Both the position numbers and the translations under genes were made by a program. The notes below the pieces were generated by a model, which made no database searches, was not told where the DNA came from, and saw only the letters and a list, made by a program, of their open reading frames with translations. Shown here one piece after another: positions 20,598 to 25,029 of a stretch of DNA of 64,000 bases (its first letter is position 1; every line of letters begins with the position of its first letter). The DNA lies in contig NZ_CP055153.1 in the NCBI RefSeq assembly GCF_014075995.1, positions 1,116,001 through 1,180,000 on the forward strand, given 5' to 3'. Source of the DNA: Adhaeribacter radiodurans (lineage in GTDB: Bacteria; Bacteroidota; Bacteroidia; Cytophagales; Hymenobacteraceae).

Positions 20598-21832
20598 AAA
20601 TTATCATTTCTTCTTCTTGGCTTATCTTAGTTTGGTCAAATTAATTCTAATTTTTCTCAGTTTAGAAAGGTATTAATAGGGAATAATTTAGTTGAAAGAA
20701 ATCGAGGCCAAAATCCTTCTCTGCATTTTAAAAGTGAAATATTACCAAAAAATTCTTTAAAAATTAGTTTTGGTCTAAAATTAGGATTAAATTAGGTAGT
20801 ATACTTAAAATAAGGATGGTTTAGTTGCCAACTTTTCAAGATTGAGATTAACCAGGAGAAAATGCAGGGCAAGATAATGATGGTGCTAGGATTTAGAGAA
20901 AGACAGCGTTTTCCGGATTAATCTACTACAGCTCTACTACAGCGTTGGCGTATGGTATTGTTCAACCTTTCGATTGGGATGGTCTGCGGCTTTCCTTCAG
21001 CTTGGTGTTGCCCTGTTTCTAAGACAGCCGCATAAGCGGCTAAATCATGGGCTCTTGTTCCCATATATGCTGGATACGAGGCATCAGCCAGCCTAAGCTT
21101 ACTTGCAATATGCGCGCAATTGCCCGCAGGGACAACCTTTCTAAGAGTAACCGCTTCAGCAGGGTTTCTGGCTTTAAGCCGGCTTCTATTTTTCTTTCCA
21201 CGGCTTGTCTTTCGCAAAAATGACATTTATAATTCTGCTTGCCGTACAGGTTTTCCCATTTTTAACTATTTTTATACTGTGGCAATGAGGACAATGGTTC
21301 ATAAGCTAGAGGTTTGGCAATTTCTAGTTTACGTTACTTTGTTCTCATTTCTTTTTTCTCAATTATTCATCCTTATTTTTAGCACACTACCTTAAGTTTT
21401 ATAAAAATGAATTTTAATAAATGTTATCCTCAACCTTCCGTTCCGATAACACCCTCTTGGCGGATGGACTTTTTAGTTGGTTTGATTTTAGGAGTACTTA
21501 TATATTACAAATTGTATTTTCAAAAACAGTATTTATATTCTCAAGTTGGCGGAGAAAATAAAAGTATAGGAACAGGTTATAAGCATAATTGTTTTTCACT
21601 GCCAGTGCTTTTTAAATACAAGCTATTACCAAAAATTAGTTTTGTAGCAGGTCCTCAATTTGATTTATTAATAAAAGCTAAAGAAAAGATTAATGACGGA
21701 ATTACTGACACCACCCACGAAACAGAAGAGCGTAATATTGGTACTACTACTGGTGTAGGTTTCAAATTAGGGAATGATTTAAGTTTAAATGCAAGATTTA
21801 TGCATTGTCTTAATCATATAGGAATTACTTAA
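20598..21832 (+). pseudogene. PorT-like outer-membrane beta-barrel gene split by an IS1-family element
   Basis: The first piece, about 20598-20794, has a signal-peptide-like start (KLSFLLLGLS, then a stop, then FGQINSNFS) and runs into LKISFGLKLGLN, the first strand of the PorT/outer-membrane beta-barrel family. The IS1-like element at 20795-21391 interrupts it exactly there. The second piece resumes at about 21392 as LSFIKMNFNK and continues with YLYSQVGGENKSIG, LPVLFKYKLLPKISFVAGPQ and LSLNARFMHCLNHIG, again barrel strands of this family. It ends early at 21832, where other IS sequence begins, so the last strands are also missing. No start codon survives. The intact gene would have encoded a periplasm-exported barrel of roughly 200 residues. 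Confidence 0.7.
20795..21391 (-). mobile_element. IS1-family element relic with recognisable terminal inverted repeats
   Basis: The ends form 24-bp terminal inverted repeats, at 20795-20818 and 21368-21391, identical at 21 of 24 positions. Both begin GGTAGT when read inward. Flanking bases share TTA, and 8-bp flanks match at 6 of 8 positions, consistent with an aged target duplication. On the - strand a transposase starts at 21302 with a zinc ribbon (CPHCHS...YKCHFCERQAVERK). A helix-turn-helix part follows (LLLERLSLRAIARILQVSLG), then IERLNNTIRQR, then RKTLSFSKS near the C-terminus. Several frameshifts and a missing central DDE part make it dead. At about 600 bp it is shorter than a normal IS1 element. 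Confidence 0.78.
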
Positions 21833-21838
21833 AGGGTA

Positions 21839-22434
21839 AGTATTTAAGAAGAAGCTGTTTAGATTTTTAAACTTCCAAAGGAGGAAGAAGTAAAAGTGTT
21901 TGCGAAGTCCTCTTACTTTAATCTTACTCCAATGGAACTCATCAGTAAAGATAACATAAACAAGTGGATTGTTCCTTTTCTAAGTGTTGGAAATAGAGGA
22001 AAAAAGCCCAAGGTTGAACAGGTAGCTATCCTAAGGGCGATCCTGTATAAGCTAAAAACAGGTTGTCAGTGGCGGCAATTGCCGACTGGAGTATTCTTTG
22101 GTAAACAACTACTTTGCTGGCAGGGTGTCTATTATCATTTTAGAAAGTGGGTTAAGGACGGTAGCTTTCGAAAAGTGTGGGTAGAACATTTAAAGAGTCA
22201 ACGCAAACTCTTTGATTTACCAGAGTGTGCAGTTACATGGTAGTCAAACTATATGCAAGAACGGCGGTGATTACATCGGCTATTAAACTAGAAAAGCGGC
22301 AAAGAGTTGTAATAGCTTGTTTTTAGCCGATAGCCAAGGTTTAATGTTAGCTTGTTCTTCTCCTCAAGCTGGTCAGCACCACGATGTATTACAGATAAAG
22401 CAGGTTTTTGAAGAACTTAGGGTATTGTTAAAGG
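21839..22434 (+). pseudogene. IS5-family transposase, truncated relic
   Basis: The first piece (reading from about 21896; natural start probably the ATG at 21932, MELISKDNINKWIVPFL) has the N-terminal domain of IS5-type transposases, with ILRAILYKLKTGCQWRQLPT and VYYHFRKWVKDGSF. The frame stops at 22243. Downstream, out of frame, come LQGSQTICKNGGDYIGY and SLFLADSQGLMLACSSPQ, then GQHHDVLQIKQVFEEL, the first part of the DDE domain. The match ends near 22434, where the IS701-like relic on the opposite strand begins. The remaining DDE domain is absent on both sides of that relic, so part of this element was deleted. Confidence 0.75.
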
Positions 22435-23010
22435 AAGCAGCCACCTGCTCGTAGCGGCCGGGCTGACCAGAGACAAGGCGGTTGGCTTTCAATCCGGCCA
22501 AAAATCCTACTTCCTGTTTTCTAAGGAACTTTAGGTTCTGAAGGGAAGCATACCAGCTATCAGCGCTTTCACAATCTGGGCGCAGCCCCCAGGTAAAGCA
22601 CTTGGTGAGCATTTGCTGAAAGTAATCATGCTTACTTTTACCATCACTAAAACGATTTGCCCGGAAATTTACTAGAAATCGCAAGCCAGATGGATCGGTG
22701 TAAAACAGGCAATCAGGTTAATGCCCTTGACCTTTTTATGATGTCTGCCCGACCAGAAAAAGCCAACTAGCTCTGTTGTTTCTAAATCAGTAAAGGGTTT
22801 ATCCGGCACCGAATCATCCGCCGATAAAGTACCACCCTGCAGACATATCCCGGACTTTACTGCTTCAAATAGTTCTTTGCCTGTAAAATCATTTTTCAAC
22901 AGAAAACGGTTGACCTCATCATATAAAACTGCTAACACTTCACTGGCCTTAACACAACTTATTTTACGAAGCTCGCTTAAAAGATAGGCAATATAAGAGG
23001 CTGCTTCCAT
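22435..23010 (-). pseudogene. IS701-like DDE transposase, frameshifted and 3' truncated
   Basis: On the - strand the protein starts at 23010 (MEAASYIAYLLSELRKISCV) and shows LSADDSVPDKPFTDLETTEL and FFWSGRHHKKVKGINLIACF. A one-base loss near 22680, in a short T run, shifts the frame. The sequence then resumes as YTDPSGLRFLVNFRANRF, ESADSWYASLQNLKFLRK and VGFLAGLKANRLVSGQPGRY. ADD and the later DSWY would hold the first two catalytic acidic residues. The C-terminus, with the last catalytic residue, is missing where the element abuts the IS5-like relic at about 22435. The family name is from memory of similar Bacteroidota transposases and could be IS4-type instead. Confidence 0.68.
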
Positions 23011-23441
23011 GGCTTTTTACATGCTTTTATAAATTGAAGCCTTTGTGGGAACTTCTATTTCTGTTTTAATTACATTAAAACTTCAGAATATGTTGACATG
23101 ATTGTTATATTGATTAACCAATAAAAATTTGATATATGCCATGAATGGCTCACTTATTTTTATTTGCGCTATATGACCAAAGTTGTGTTAATTTAATCTT
23201 ATTGATTTTATTTTGAACTTTTCTTATAGCCAAGTAGTTGAAACTCCATATAATTGGAATAAATTGTTTTACAAAATAGATTTATATCTTTATTTAAAGT
23301 GGAGATTAATTTTCACATATTCTTTATATCAATTATTAATAATATTTTATATTATTAATAATTGATATAAACTTTTTTATAATTATAAATTTATATATTA
23401 AAATCCTAAGTTTTAAGGTTATTTACAATTATTTAATTTAA
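23011..23441. other. AT-rich spacer without genes, containing a long inverted repeat
   Basis: No coding frame is supported here. The stretch lies between the IS701-like relic and a GT2 gene. It becomes extremely AT-rich toward the GT2 gene and holds the perfect inverted repeat described separately. The promoter of the second + strand block probably lies here, but I could not fix a -33/-7 pair with confidence. Confidence 0.6.
23323..23371. repeat. Perfect 23-bp inverted repeat with a 3-base loop
   Basis: Arms at 23323-23345 and 23349-23371 are perfectly complementary and enclose TTT. The arms contain almost only A and T (one C in the left arm, one G in the right). It lies about 70 bases before the GT2 start codon at 23442. 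There is no GC-rich stem, so it is not a standard terminator. A cruciform, a protein-binding palindrome or an RNA hairpin in the 5' leader are all possible. Confidence 0.9.
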
Positions 23442-24404
23442 ATGGATCGTATTCCATCTTCGCCGCCTACGATTTTGCCTCTTCCAGTATGTGAAAAGCG
23501 TCCTTTATGGTCAGTTATGATTCCGGTTTATAACTGTTCCAATTATCTGCCTATTGTGCTAGAAAGTGTACTGTCCCAAGATTTAGGAGAATTGAATATG
23601 CAAATTGAAGTTGTAGATGATGCCAGCACCGATGCGAATGTTGAAGAGATCGTGAAAAGTCTTGGAAAAGGCCGAGTACAGTATTATCGACAACCTATAA
23701 ATGTTGGGAGTCTGCGTAATTTTGAAACATGCATTAACCGGTCAAAGGGCAAACTAGTTCATCTGCTGCACGGAGATGACCGGGTTAAAGTAGGTTTCTA
23801 TGAGAAACTAACTTGGCTTTTCGAAAGATATCCAGAAGTGGGAGCTGCCTTTTGTAATTATAGTTTTATAGATGAATTCGGTGAAAAGTACCATGACCAG
23901 GCTCCAGAAGAAAAAGAAGATGGAATATTAAAAAACTGGTTTTTAAGAATTTCAAAAATTCAACGCATCCAATTTGTAGCTATGGCTGTTCGGCGGGAGG
24001 TTTATGAAAAATTAGGAAGCTTTTATGGGACGATTTATGGAGAAGATTGGGAAATGTGGGTAAGAATTGCAAAAAATTACTCTGTTGCATATACACCAGA
24101 AATCTTTGCTGAATACCGAAGACATGAAAATTCTATTTCATCAGGGCAGATAGCCAATGATTATGCAAGAGCTATATACTATGTGCAACAATATTTACCA
24201 GAAGATAAGAAAAAACTTACAGCTAAAGCACAAAAGGAATGTGCACTTATTAGTCTAAGCCGGGCAAATGTTATTTGGGGGGAAACCCGCAATAAGAAGC
24301 TGGCATTCTCCCAGGTAAAACTAGCTTTAAGTTTAAATAAGTCCCCGGAACTTTATTATCATATACTTAAATTATACATTAAGTTTATTTTGAAAGTATA
24401 TTAA
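23442..24404 (+). CDS. Glycosyltransferase family 2
   Basis: A GT-A enzyme of 320 residues that opens the second + strand block. After a proline-rich start, the fold begins WSVMIPVYNCSNYLPIVLES, followed by IEVVDDASTDANVEEIV. The metal-binding motif takes the form LHGDDRV rather than DxDD. A second conserved acidic region is GEDWEMWVRIA, where ED would be the catalytic pair. The last 90 residues are helical and charged. It stands alone, more than 600 bases before the ABC exporter genes, and directly downstream of the large inverted repeat. The donor and acceptor are unknown. Confidence 0.86.
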   Translation: MDRIPSSPPTILPLPVCEKRPLWSVMIPVYNCSNYLPIVLESVLSQDLGELNMQIEVVDDASTDANVEEIVKSLGKGRVQYYRQPINVGSLRNFETCINRSKGKLVHLLHGDDRVKVGFYEKLTWLFERYPEVGAAFCNYSFIDEFGEKYHDQAPEEKEDGILKNWFLRISKIQRIQFVAMAVRREVYEKLGSFYGTIYGEDWEMWVRIAKNYSVAYTPEIFAEYRRHENSISSGQIANDYARAIYYVQQYLPEDKKKLTAKAQKECALISLSRANVIWGETRNKKLAFSQVKLALSLNKSPELYYHILKLYIKFILKVY

Positions 24405-25029
24405 ATTTTATACAAAAGAATAACTAATTTAATAACTTGTTCTTTTGTATAACTGAAAGCTCAAATACACGAAAAATTTATTTATTATAAAGCTTTACGG
24501 CTTCATCAAGGACCTGTCTTGCTTATGAGGACACTTTGCCAATCAAAATTTTCAATGGTTAGACAATCTTTCTATTTTTGATTGCTTATTTATTTCCAAA
24601 GACAATAAACATTGCCGAGGATAATAAGCTAACAATTATGATAATAGAAGCACTCTATTTGCCAAGGCGAAGTAAATTTACCATCGTACCACTTGAGTAC
24701 TATCTTTAATTTTTTTATTTCTGATTTTACTTATAATGTACCTTTTATATAGATGAAATGAATATAGAAAATTATAATCCATTACTATTAACACCTTTTT
24801 AATTGAGGTTAATAATATTTTCGTTTGATAGATATCTTTTTATAAATTAAAGGTTTTTAAACTAGTACAATTAAGAAATTAAAGCTTTTTAGGTCGAATT
24901 GGAAGACCTCTCCTAAGTGGTTAGATGTGGTTTTTGTACATTGAATTTTTTATTGTAGATTGAGATAAATAGATATTTTTCATTTTAATCTAATAACATT
25001 TAATATAATCAGGATAACACATTTTTAAA
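24405..25029. other. Intergenic region with a possible glycosyltransferase 3' remnant
   Basis: About 625 bases without an intact gene. On the - strand near 24480-24575, LTIENFDWQSVLISK and, one frame over, RQVLDEAVKLYNK before a stop resemble the C-terminal helices of a GT4 enzyme. The match is short and needs one frameshift, so it is weak. The rest is AT-rich and shows nothing recognisable. The promoter for the ABC exporter genes is probably in the last 100 bases. Confidence 0.3.

Follow-up and report, generated by a model that had tools for sequence, protein, structure and literature searches.

A perfect AT-rich inverted repeat ahead of a polysaccharide gene block in Adhaeribacter radiodurans, with a possible template-switch origin and at most weak terminator activity

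The spacer that precedes the second polysaccharide gene block in a 64,000-nucleotide stretch of the Adhaeribacter radiodurans genome (the window) contains a 49-base palindrome that is beyond chance yet unexceptional among the long perfect hairpins of this genome. We conclude that it is an ordinary member of a kind already described, the intergenic perfect inverted repeats. The likeliest single reading, which we hold tentatively, is that of an ordinary lineage-specific intergenic inverted repeat that originated by template switching and serves, at most, as a weak intrinsic terminator on the + strand. Behind this reading we place, in descending order, a palindrome with no function, an operator and a hairpin in the 5' untranslated leader of the second block.

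The first-pass annotation had described a perfect 23-bp inverted repeat with a TTT loop, made almost only of A and T, at positions 23323-23371, and the listing of inverted repeats bore this out. The arms are 23 nt each, lie 3 nt apart and are 100% complementary, and only one of the 23 pairs is G-C (Table 1). Among the 25 longest of the 49 inverted repeats in the window, the palindrome is the sole fully complementary pair. Two copies of the 12-bp palindrome ATTATTAATAAT are nested within it, 19 bp apart from start to start. Its predicted fold has an energy of -16.3 kcal/mol as a single DNA strand and of -20.0 kcal/mol as RNA, and the predicted RNA hairpin, with 23 pairs and a loop of 3, is a stable stem-loop that is weak per pair. 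On the + strand CTTTTTT follows the stem, and 7 of the first 10 bases after the stem are T; on the - strand the corresponding count is 3 of 10.

Table 1. Features of the palindrome and its surroundings, in window coordinates.
Feature	Position	Strand	Basis
Relic of an IS701-family transposase in two broken frames, with a degraded terminal repeat near 23057	22373..23057	-	NCBIfam model, alignment
Weak promoter-like pair upstream of palindrome: TTG, 20 bases, TAGATTTA (5/6 of TAnnTTTG)	23254..23284	+	motif scan
Left arm of perfect inverted repeat	23323..23345	+	inverted-repeat listing, sequence
ATTATTAATAAT, 12-bp palindrome nested within left arm	23332..23343	.	sequence
TTT loop	23346..23348	+	inverted-repeat listing, sequence
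Right arm of perfect inverted repeat	23349..23371	+	inverted-repeat listing, sequence
ATTATTAATAAT, second copy, within right arm	23351..23362	.	sequence
Weak promoter-like pair overlapping right arm: TTG, 21 bases, TAAATTTA (5/6)	23362..23393	+	motif scan
Six-T run, one base 3' of stem, terminator-like tail	23373..23378	+	sequence
Glycosyltransferase family 2 (PF00535), first gene of second block	23442..24404	+	domain match; start supported by related loci

The spacer itself (23058-23441) is 384 bp long with a GC content of 0.18, or 82% A+T. Spacers of at least 150 bases with a GC content of 0.21 or less are rare (4 of 404), which makes the setting unusual as well. The last base of the palindrome is 23371 and an ATG follows at 23442, which agrees with the roughly 70 bases that the first-pass annotation put between the palindrome and the second block's first gene; this start codon is supported by 15 related loci, which align from query residues 1-3. 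The gene encodes a glycosyltransferase and heads a block that also includes an ABC-2 type transporter with its ATPase, and the block is described as a polysaccharide or polysaccharide export block. Directly 3' of the stop codon of the same glycosyltransferase gene lies a second AT-rich inverted repeat (24408-24452), with 22-nt arms that are 86% complementary and no T run after it. To the left of the palindrome, the nearest ORF is on the opposite strand, 313 bp off. At 1.1-1.5 kb upstream are the ends of an IS5 piece and of the remnant of an outer-membrane protein, and the last clearly intact + strand gene stops at 2.8 kb. No regulator gene adjoins the palindrome.

Positions 20918-23057 of the window hold a heap of broken elements, comprising IS5-like and IS701-like transposase pieces, a weak IS1-like match and an outer-membrane beta-barrel remnant. 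The - strand frames at 22373-23010 match the NCBIfam IS701 model as fragments, with 82.8 and 96.5 bits against a cut-off of 250 bits that is meant for whole proteins and below which fragments are expected to fall. Repeats of the TAGGAGTTACGCA type form the ends of three IS701 copies in relatives (two copies in G018, one in G007), and alignment by eye to these copies placed the matching degraded end of the window's relic near 23057. The palindrome begins approximately 265 bp beyond this end and hence lies outside the relic. The location given in the first-pass annotation, at the edge of an IS graveyard, is loose at this distance from the nearest IS relic.

We compared the palindrome with shuffled sequence, simulated sequence and the genome's own hairpins. 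Among 1000 dinucleotide shuffles of the spacer (23058-23441), none reached an arm of 23; the longest perfect hairpin had an arm of 18 in one shuffle and of at most 14 in the remainder. Perfect hairpins with arms of at least 15 and loops of at most 20 were then counted in a genome sample of 1.124 Mb, consisting of the window and 53 further stretches, with 3.37 Mb of sequence simulated at order 2 in blocks of 500 bases as the control. The longest simulated arm was 13. Neither control ever matched the palindrome, so a chance origin is rejected, as the first-pass annotation had held. The genome sample itself contained 55 perfect hairpins with arms of at least 15 (49 per Mb), of which 22 had arms of at least 20 and 14 had arms of at least 23, and samples from three genomes of the same genus were alike (10 in 140 kb, 5 in 140 kb and 5 in 120 kb). 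The rarity that the annotation implied is contradicted by these counts, and because long perfect hairpins are common in this genome, perfection does not here point to a special function. An arm GC content of 0.15 or less was found in only 5 of the 55 hairpins, and the palindrome is the most AT-rich of the five.

The positions of these hairpins were also recorded. In the first 724 kb of the sample, with ORFs called by a simple length rule and not by a gene finder, 0 of 36 hairpins lay inside a called ORF and 19 of 36 lay between convergent genes. A wider set, which allowed up to two mismatches, comprised 65 hairpins over the 1.124 Mb; 47 of these were within 100 bases 3' of a stop codon, 7 were only before a start codon, 8 were at neither and 3 were at the edge of a stretch. 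On account of these distributions, most long hairpins of the genome are terminator-like by position. The palindrome is one of the seven that precede a start codon and do not follow a stop codon. A separate class of AT-rich promoter hairpins was considered and dropped: in the first sample, the three hairpins richest in A+T lay 56-74 bp before start codons, and seven AT-rich hairpins found later (five from the same genome and two from G003) were mixed in position.

These observations fit a survey of 118,019 genomes (PMC13155455), which reports that bacterial perfect inverted repeats exceed shuffled controls, are mostly intergenic, and show peaks some 50 bp ahead of start codons and 50-80 bp past stop codons. 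The palindrome resembles the perfect bacterial repeats of that survey in its perfect arms, short loop, intergenic location and distance of about 70 bp from a start codon. It differs from them in having long arms almost without G or C, and the same survey gives AT-rich repeats as commonest in Eukaryota and not in Bacteria.

The palindrome is single copy in the genome. The matches of a 301-base query around it were the query itself, the reverse complement of the query and a single 37-base place at 84%, and a 31-base pattern with up to 3 mismatches found no place in the genome besides the palindrome. The first-pass annotation had proposed a genome search for other copies; none emerged, while the same type of search at once revealed a different hairpin family, which served as a positive control. 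This REP-like dispersed family, with arms TGTCATTCTGGAAGAATCTAA, gave 16 matches to a 21-base pattern at up to 2 mismatches and 0 in the reversed control. Both of its arms are present at five places (G000:C2:1803884, 3252200, 6302092, 6582290 and 3158250), and the loci L037 (3877-3947) and L047 (2200-2256) are among those places. Like REP-like dispersed palindromes, the palindrome forms a long hairpin between genes; unlike REP-like or MITE-like palindromes it is present once, and the genome's true dispersed family has a different sequence.

Counterparts were also sought in other genomes. Viral contigs contained no exact match to a pattern of the arm or to one of the paired central arms. In a genome-contig collection of 84,980 species the paired central-arm pattern had one match, in a Prochloron MAG, and this is not the same hairpin but a tandem repeat with a self-complementary unit. 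As judged from these sequence patterns, the exact scans yield no true counterpart of the palindrome, in collections that were scanned for exact matches only and that may omit the window's own or very near genomes. A search with the spacer against 97 relatives besides the genome itself gave matches at E ≤ 0.01 in 28 of them, at 47 places and with lengths of 22 to 111 bases, which is far more than the E-value promises, as an AT-rich query leads one to expect. The same spacer was found in none of the 97. Eighteen of the 47 places, together with one place in the genome itself, were inspected for a hairpin; of these 19 places, 10 had none, 8 had arms of 10-13 and one, L073 in the same-genus genome G002, had an 18-bp arm (spacer match with E 6.8e-4, 83% over about 40 bases). 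L073 is the one result that favours a wider family of such palindromes. It is probably a look-alike from the AT-rich background, its gene setting being different. The L073 hairpin (2501-2539) has an AT-rich 18-bp arm with one mismatch and a TTT loop, overlaps the end of a presumably ParA-like gene (stop at 2516) and is followed by a small gene; it is perhaps a partition site or a terminator.

A search for relatives of the glycosyltransferase gene gave 23 places in 58 relatives, and 19 of these loci (L008-L026) were examined upstream. Fifteen were 53-61% identical, one was 46% identical and three were 29-33% identical. Within 600 bases upstream of the 19 related genes, no hairpin arm above 11 was present; eight loci had arms of 10-11 with one mismatch, six of them within 90 bases. 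The first-pass annotation had named a lack of conservation among relatives as evidence against its view of the palindrome. Such a lack was found as far as the comparison reaches, and it weighs little, since the spacer itself turned up in none of the 97 relatives.

The origin that we favour is template switching. During replication of the very AT-rich spacer, one arm may have served as the template for a reverse-complement copy that became the other or, alternatively, template switching may have corrected an imperfect palindrome. Template switching is described as able to make a perfect stem in one event (PMC8794818) and as turning quasipalindromes perfect in Escherichia coli (PMC7202029). The first-pass annotation had taken perfection to imply selection. 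Since template switching can make or repair such arms, however, perfection requires no selection on every base, and long perfect palindromes are common here. In its perfection and short loop the palindrome is like the quasipalindromes perfected by template switching in those sources, for which no per-base selection is needed; in contrast to them, it is known from a single sequence and not from a comparison with an ancestral or sister version. Its single copy and the lack of clear relatives fit a local mutational origin.

If the palindrome is functional, RNA from the + strand would form a hairpin of 23 bp, almost all A-U, followed by one base and six U, and this would most likely act as a weak intrinsic terminator, halting stray transcription from the IS relics before the second polysaccharide block. 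A hairpin followed by six U on one strand is what an intrinsic (Rho-independent) terminator has; unlike such a terminator, the palindrome has no GC core and no gene end just upstream. Intrinsic terminators usually have a GC-rich stem, and a scan for the terminator consensus that required three G-C pairs did not list the palindrome. Termination hairpins need not be GC-rich, according to one report (PMC8355165). The predicted stem energy falls inside the range of 35 hairpins between convergent genes (-11.3 to -69 kcal/mol, median -28.2). Against a terminator, the energy per pair is -0.87 kcal/mol compared with a median of -1.44, and 11 of the 65 hairpins, the palindrome included, are as weak or weaker. 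The stable stem-loop and the U run right after the stem are thus present, and the GC-rich stem and a location directly behind a transcribed gene's stop codon are absent. The U run lacks specificity in this genome. If the 8 bases after the stem are required to include 5 or more T on either strand, 17 of 47 hairpins after stop codons qualify, versus 5 of 7 before start codons. Because T runs are not commoner after stop codons, and because the spacer is so rich in A+T, the T run is weak evidence for a terminator.

A purely neutral palindrome without function, which shares its template-switch origin with the preferred reading and overlaps with it in odds, is possible rather than probable. The single copy, the lack of a clear counterpart in relatives, the composition of almost only A and T, and the IS-littered spacer would all be expected of a neutral sequence. 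The hairpin background argues the other way, since the 47 of 65 long hairpins after stop codons and the 0 of 36 in called ORFs suggest selection on much of the class, and the tail of the palindrome suits a terminator.

An operator, corresponding to the regulator site that the first-pass annotation suggested alongside a cruciform, is possible though improbable. In this case the dyad would overlap the upstream element of the second block's promoter and be bound by a putative dimeric or tetrameric regulator. The two nested 12-bp palindromes and the position before the start codon, with no intact gene's stop codon near, are consistent with such a site, as is the TTG in the right arm, 21 bases before TAAATTTA. 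A comparable AT-rich hairpin (L052, 4389-4424) sits 74 bp before a gene that resembles a regulator gene. The L052 hairpin has perfect 16-bp arms and is followed by ACAATATTGTAG, and the start of the gene resembles what we take to be BlaI-type repressors; the hairpin is perhaps the operator of this BlaI-type-like gene. The palindrome itself is not accompanied by an adjacent regulator gene, and recurrence and conservation, which an operator should show, were not seen: elsewhere in the genome, no exact site of a 14-base arm motif is present, and none of the 19 related loci has an upstream hairpin arm above 11. With one mismatch, the arm motif has 32 sites (two of them in the palindrome) versus 18 for the reversed control, an excess that is inflated by the motif's own symmetry.

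The promoter that an operator reading relies upon is a weak match with an unfavoured spacing. The motifs TAnnTTTG and TTTG have been described as promoter motifs (PMC7366714). In the genome sample TAnnTTTG is modestly enriched before genes, at 0.99 per kb in the sense direction, 0.80 antisense and 0.46 in convergent spacers. The AT-rich spacer contains seven + strand boxes with the same score of 5/6, so the match has low specificity. Of the 93 TAnnTTTG boxes in the sample, none had a TTG at a spacing of 21, as in the right arm, and 8 had one at a spacing of 20, which is the commonest. A scan for sigma-70-type sites, some of whose hits overlap the palindrome, gave 24 where 18.4 were expected (sd 4.2), and was given no weight. 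A double operator, in which the two identical ATTATTAATAAT dyads within the 49-bp dyad serve a putative regulator, or in which the block is switched by cruciform extrusion, is very unlikely.

We consider it doubtful, and a little more so than a single operator, that a promoter upstream of the palindrome places the hairpin in the 5' untranslated region, where it would protect the mRNA of the second block or slow its transcription. The palindrome stem is the dominant structure in the predicted RNA fold of 23300-23441 (z -4.1), and the TAGATTTA box at 23277 has its TTG at the commonest spacing of the genome sample. That box, however, deviates from the motif at one of six fixed positions and the spacer has seven such boxes, the stem is 70 bases from the start codon and too distant to cover the ribosome site, and an Rfam search gave no match at the palindrome. 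One sub-threshold match to an S15 leader (24048-24128), inside the glycosyltransferase gene, was ignored. Least probable of all, and already largely refuted, is the suggestion in the first-pass annotation that the palindrome is the end of a small mobile unit, or of a neighbouring IS: IS5- and IS701-type relics and a weak IS1-type match do lie upstream, but the palindrome has no second copy, the IS701 end maps elsewhere, and two exact palindrome patterns are unmatched in viral contigs.

The palindrome thus matters little by itself. The yardstick for any long perfect palindrome found in a drifting, IS-littered spacer should be the hairpin background of the genome concerned, which is here about 49 per Mb for arms of at least 15. 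If the palindrome insulates or regulates the second block, it would bear on the separate control of the polysaccharide blocks after IS damage.
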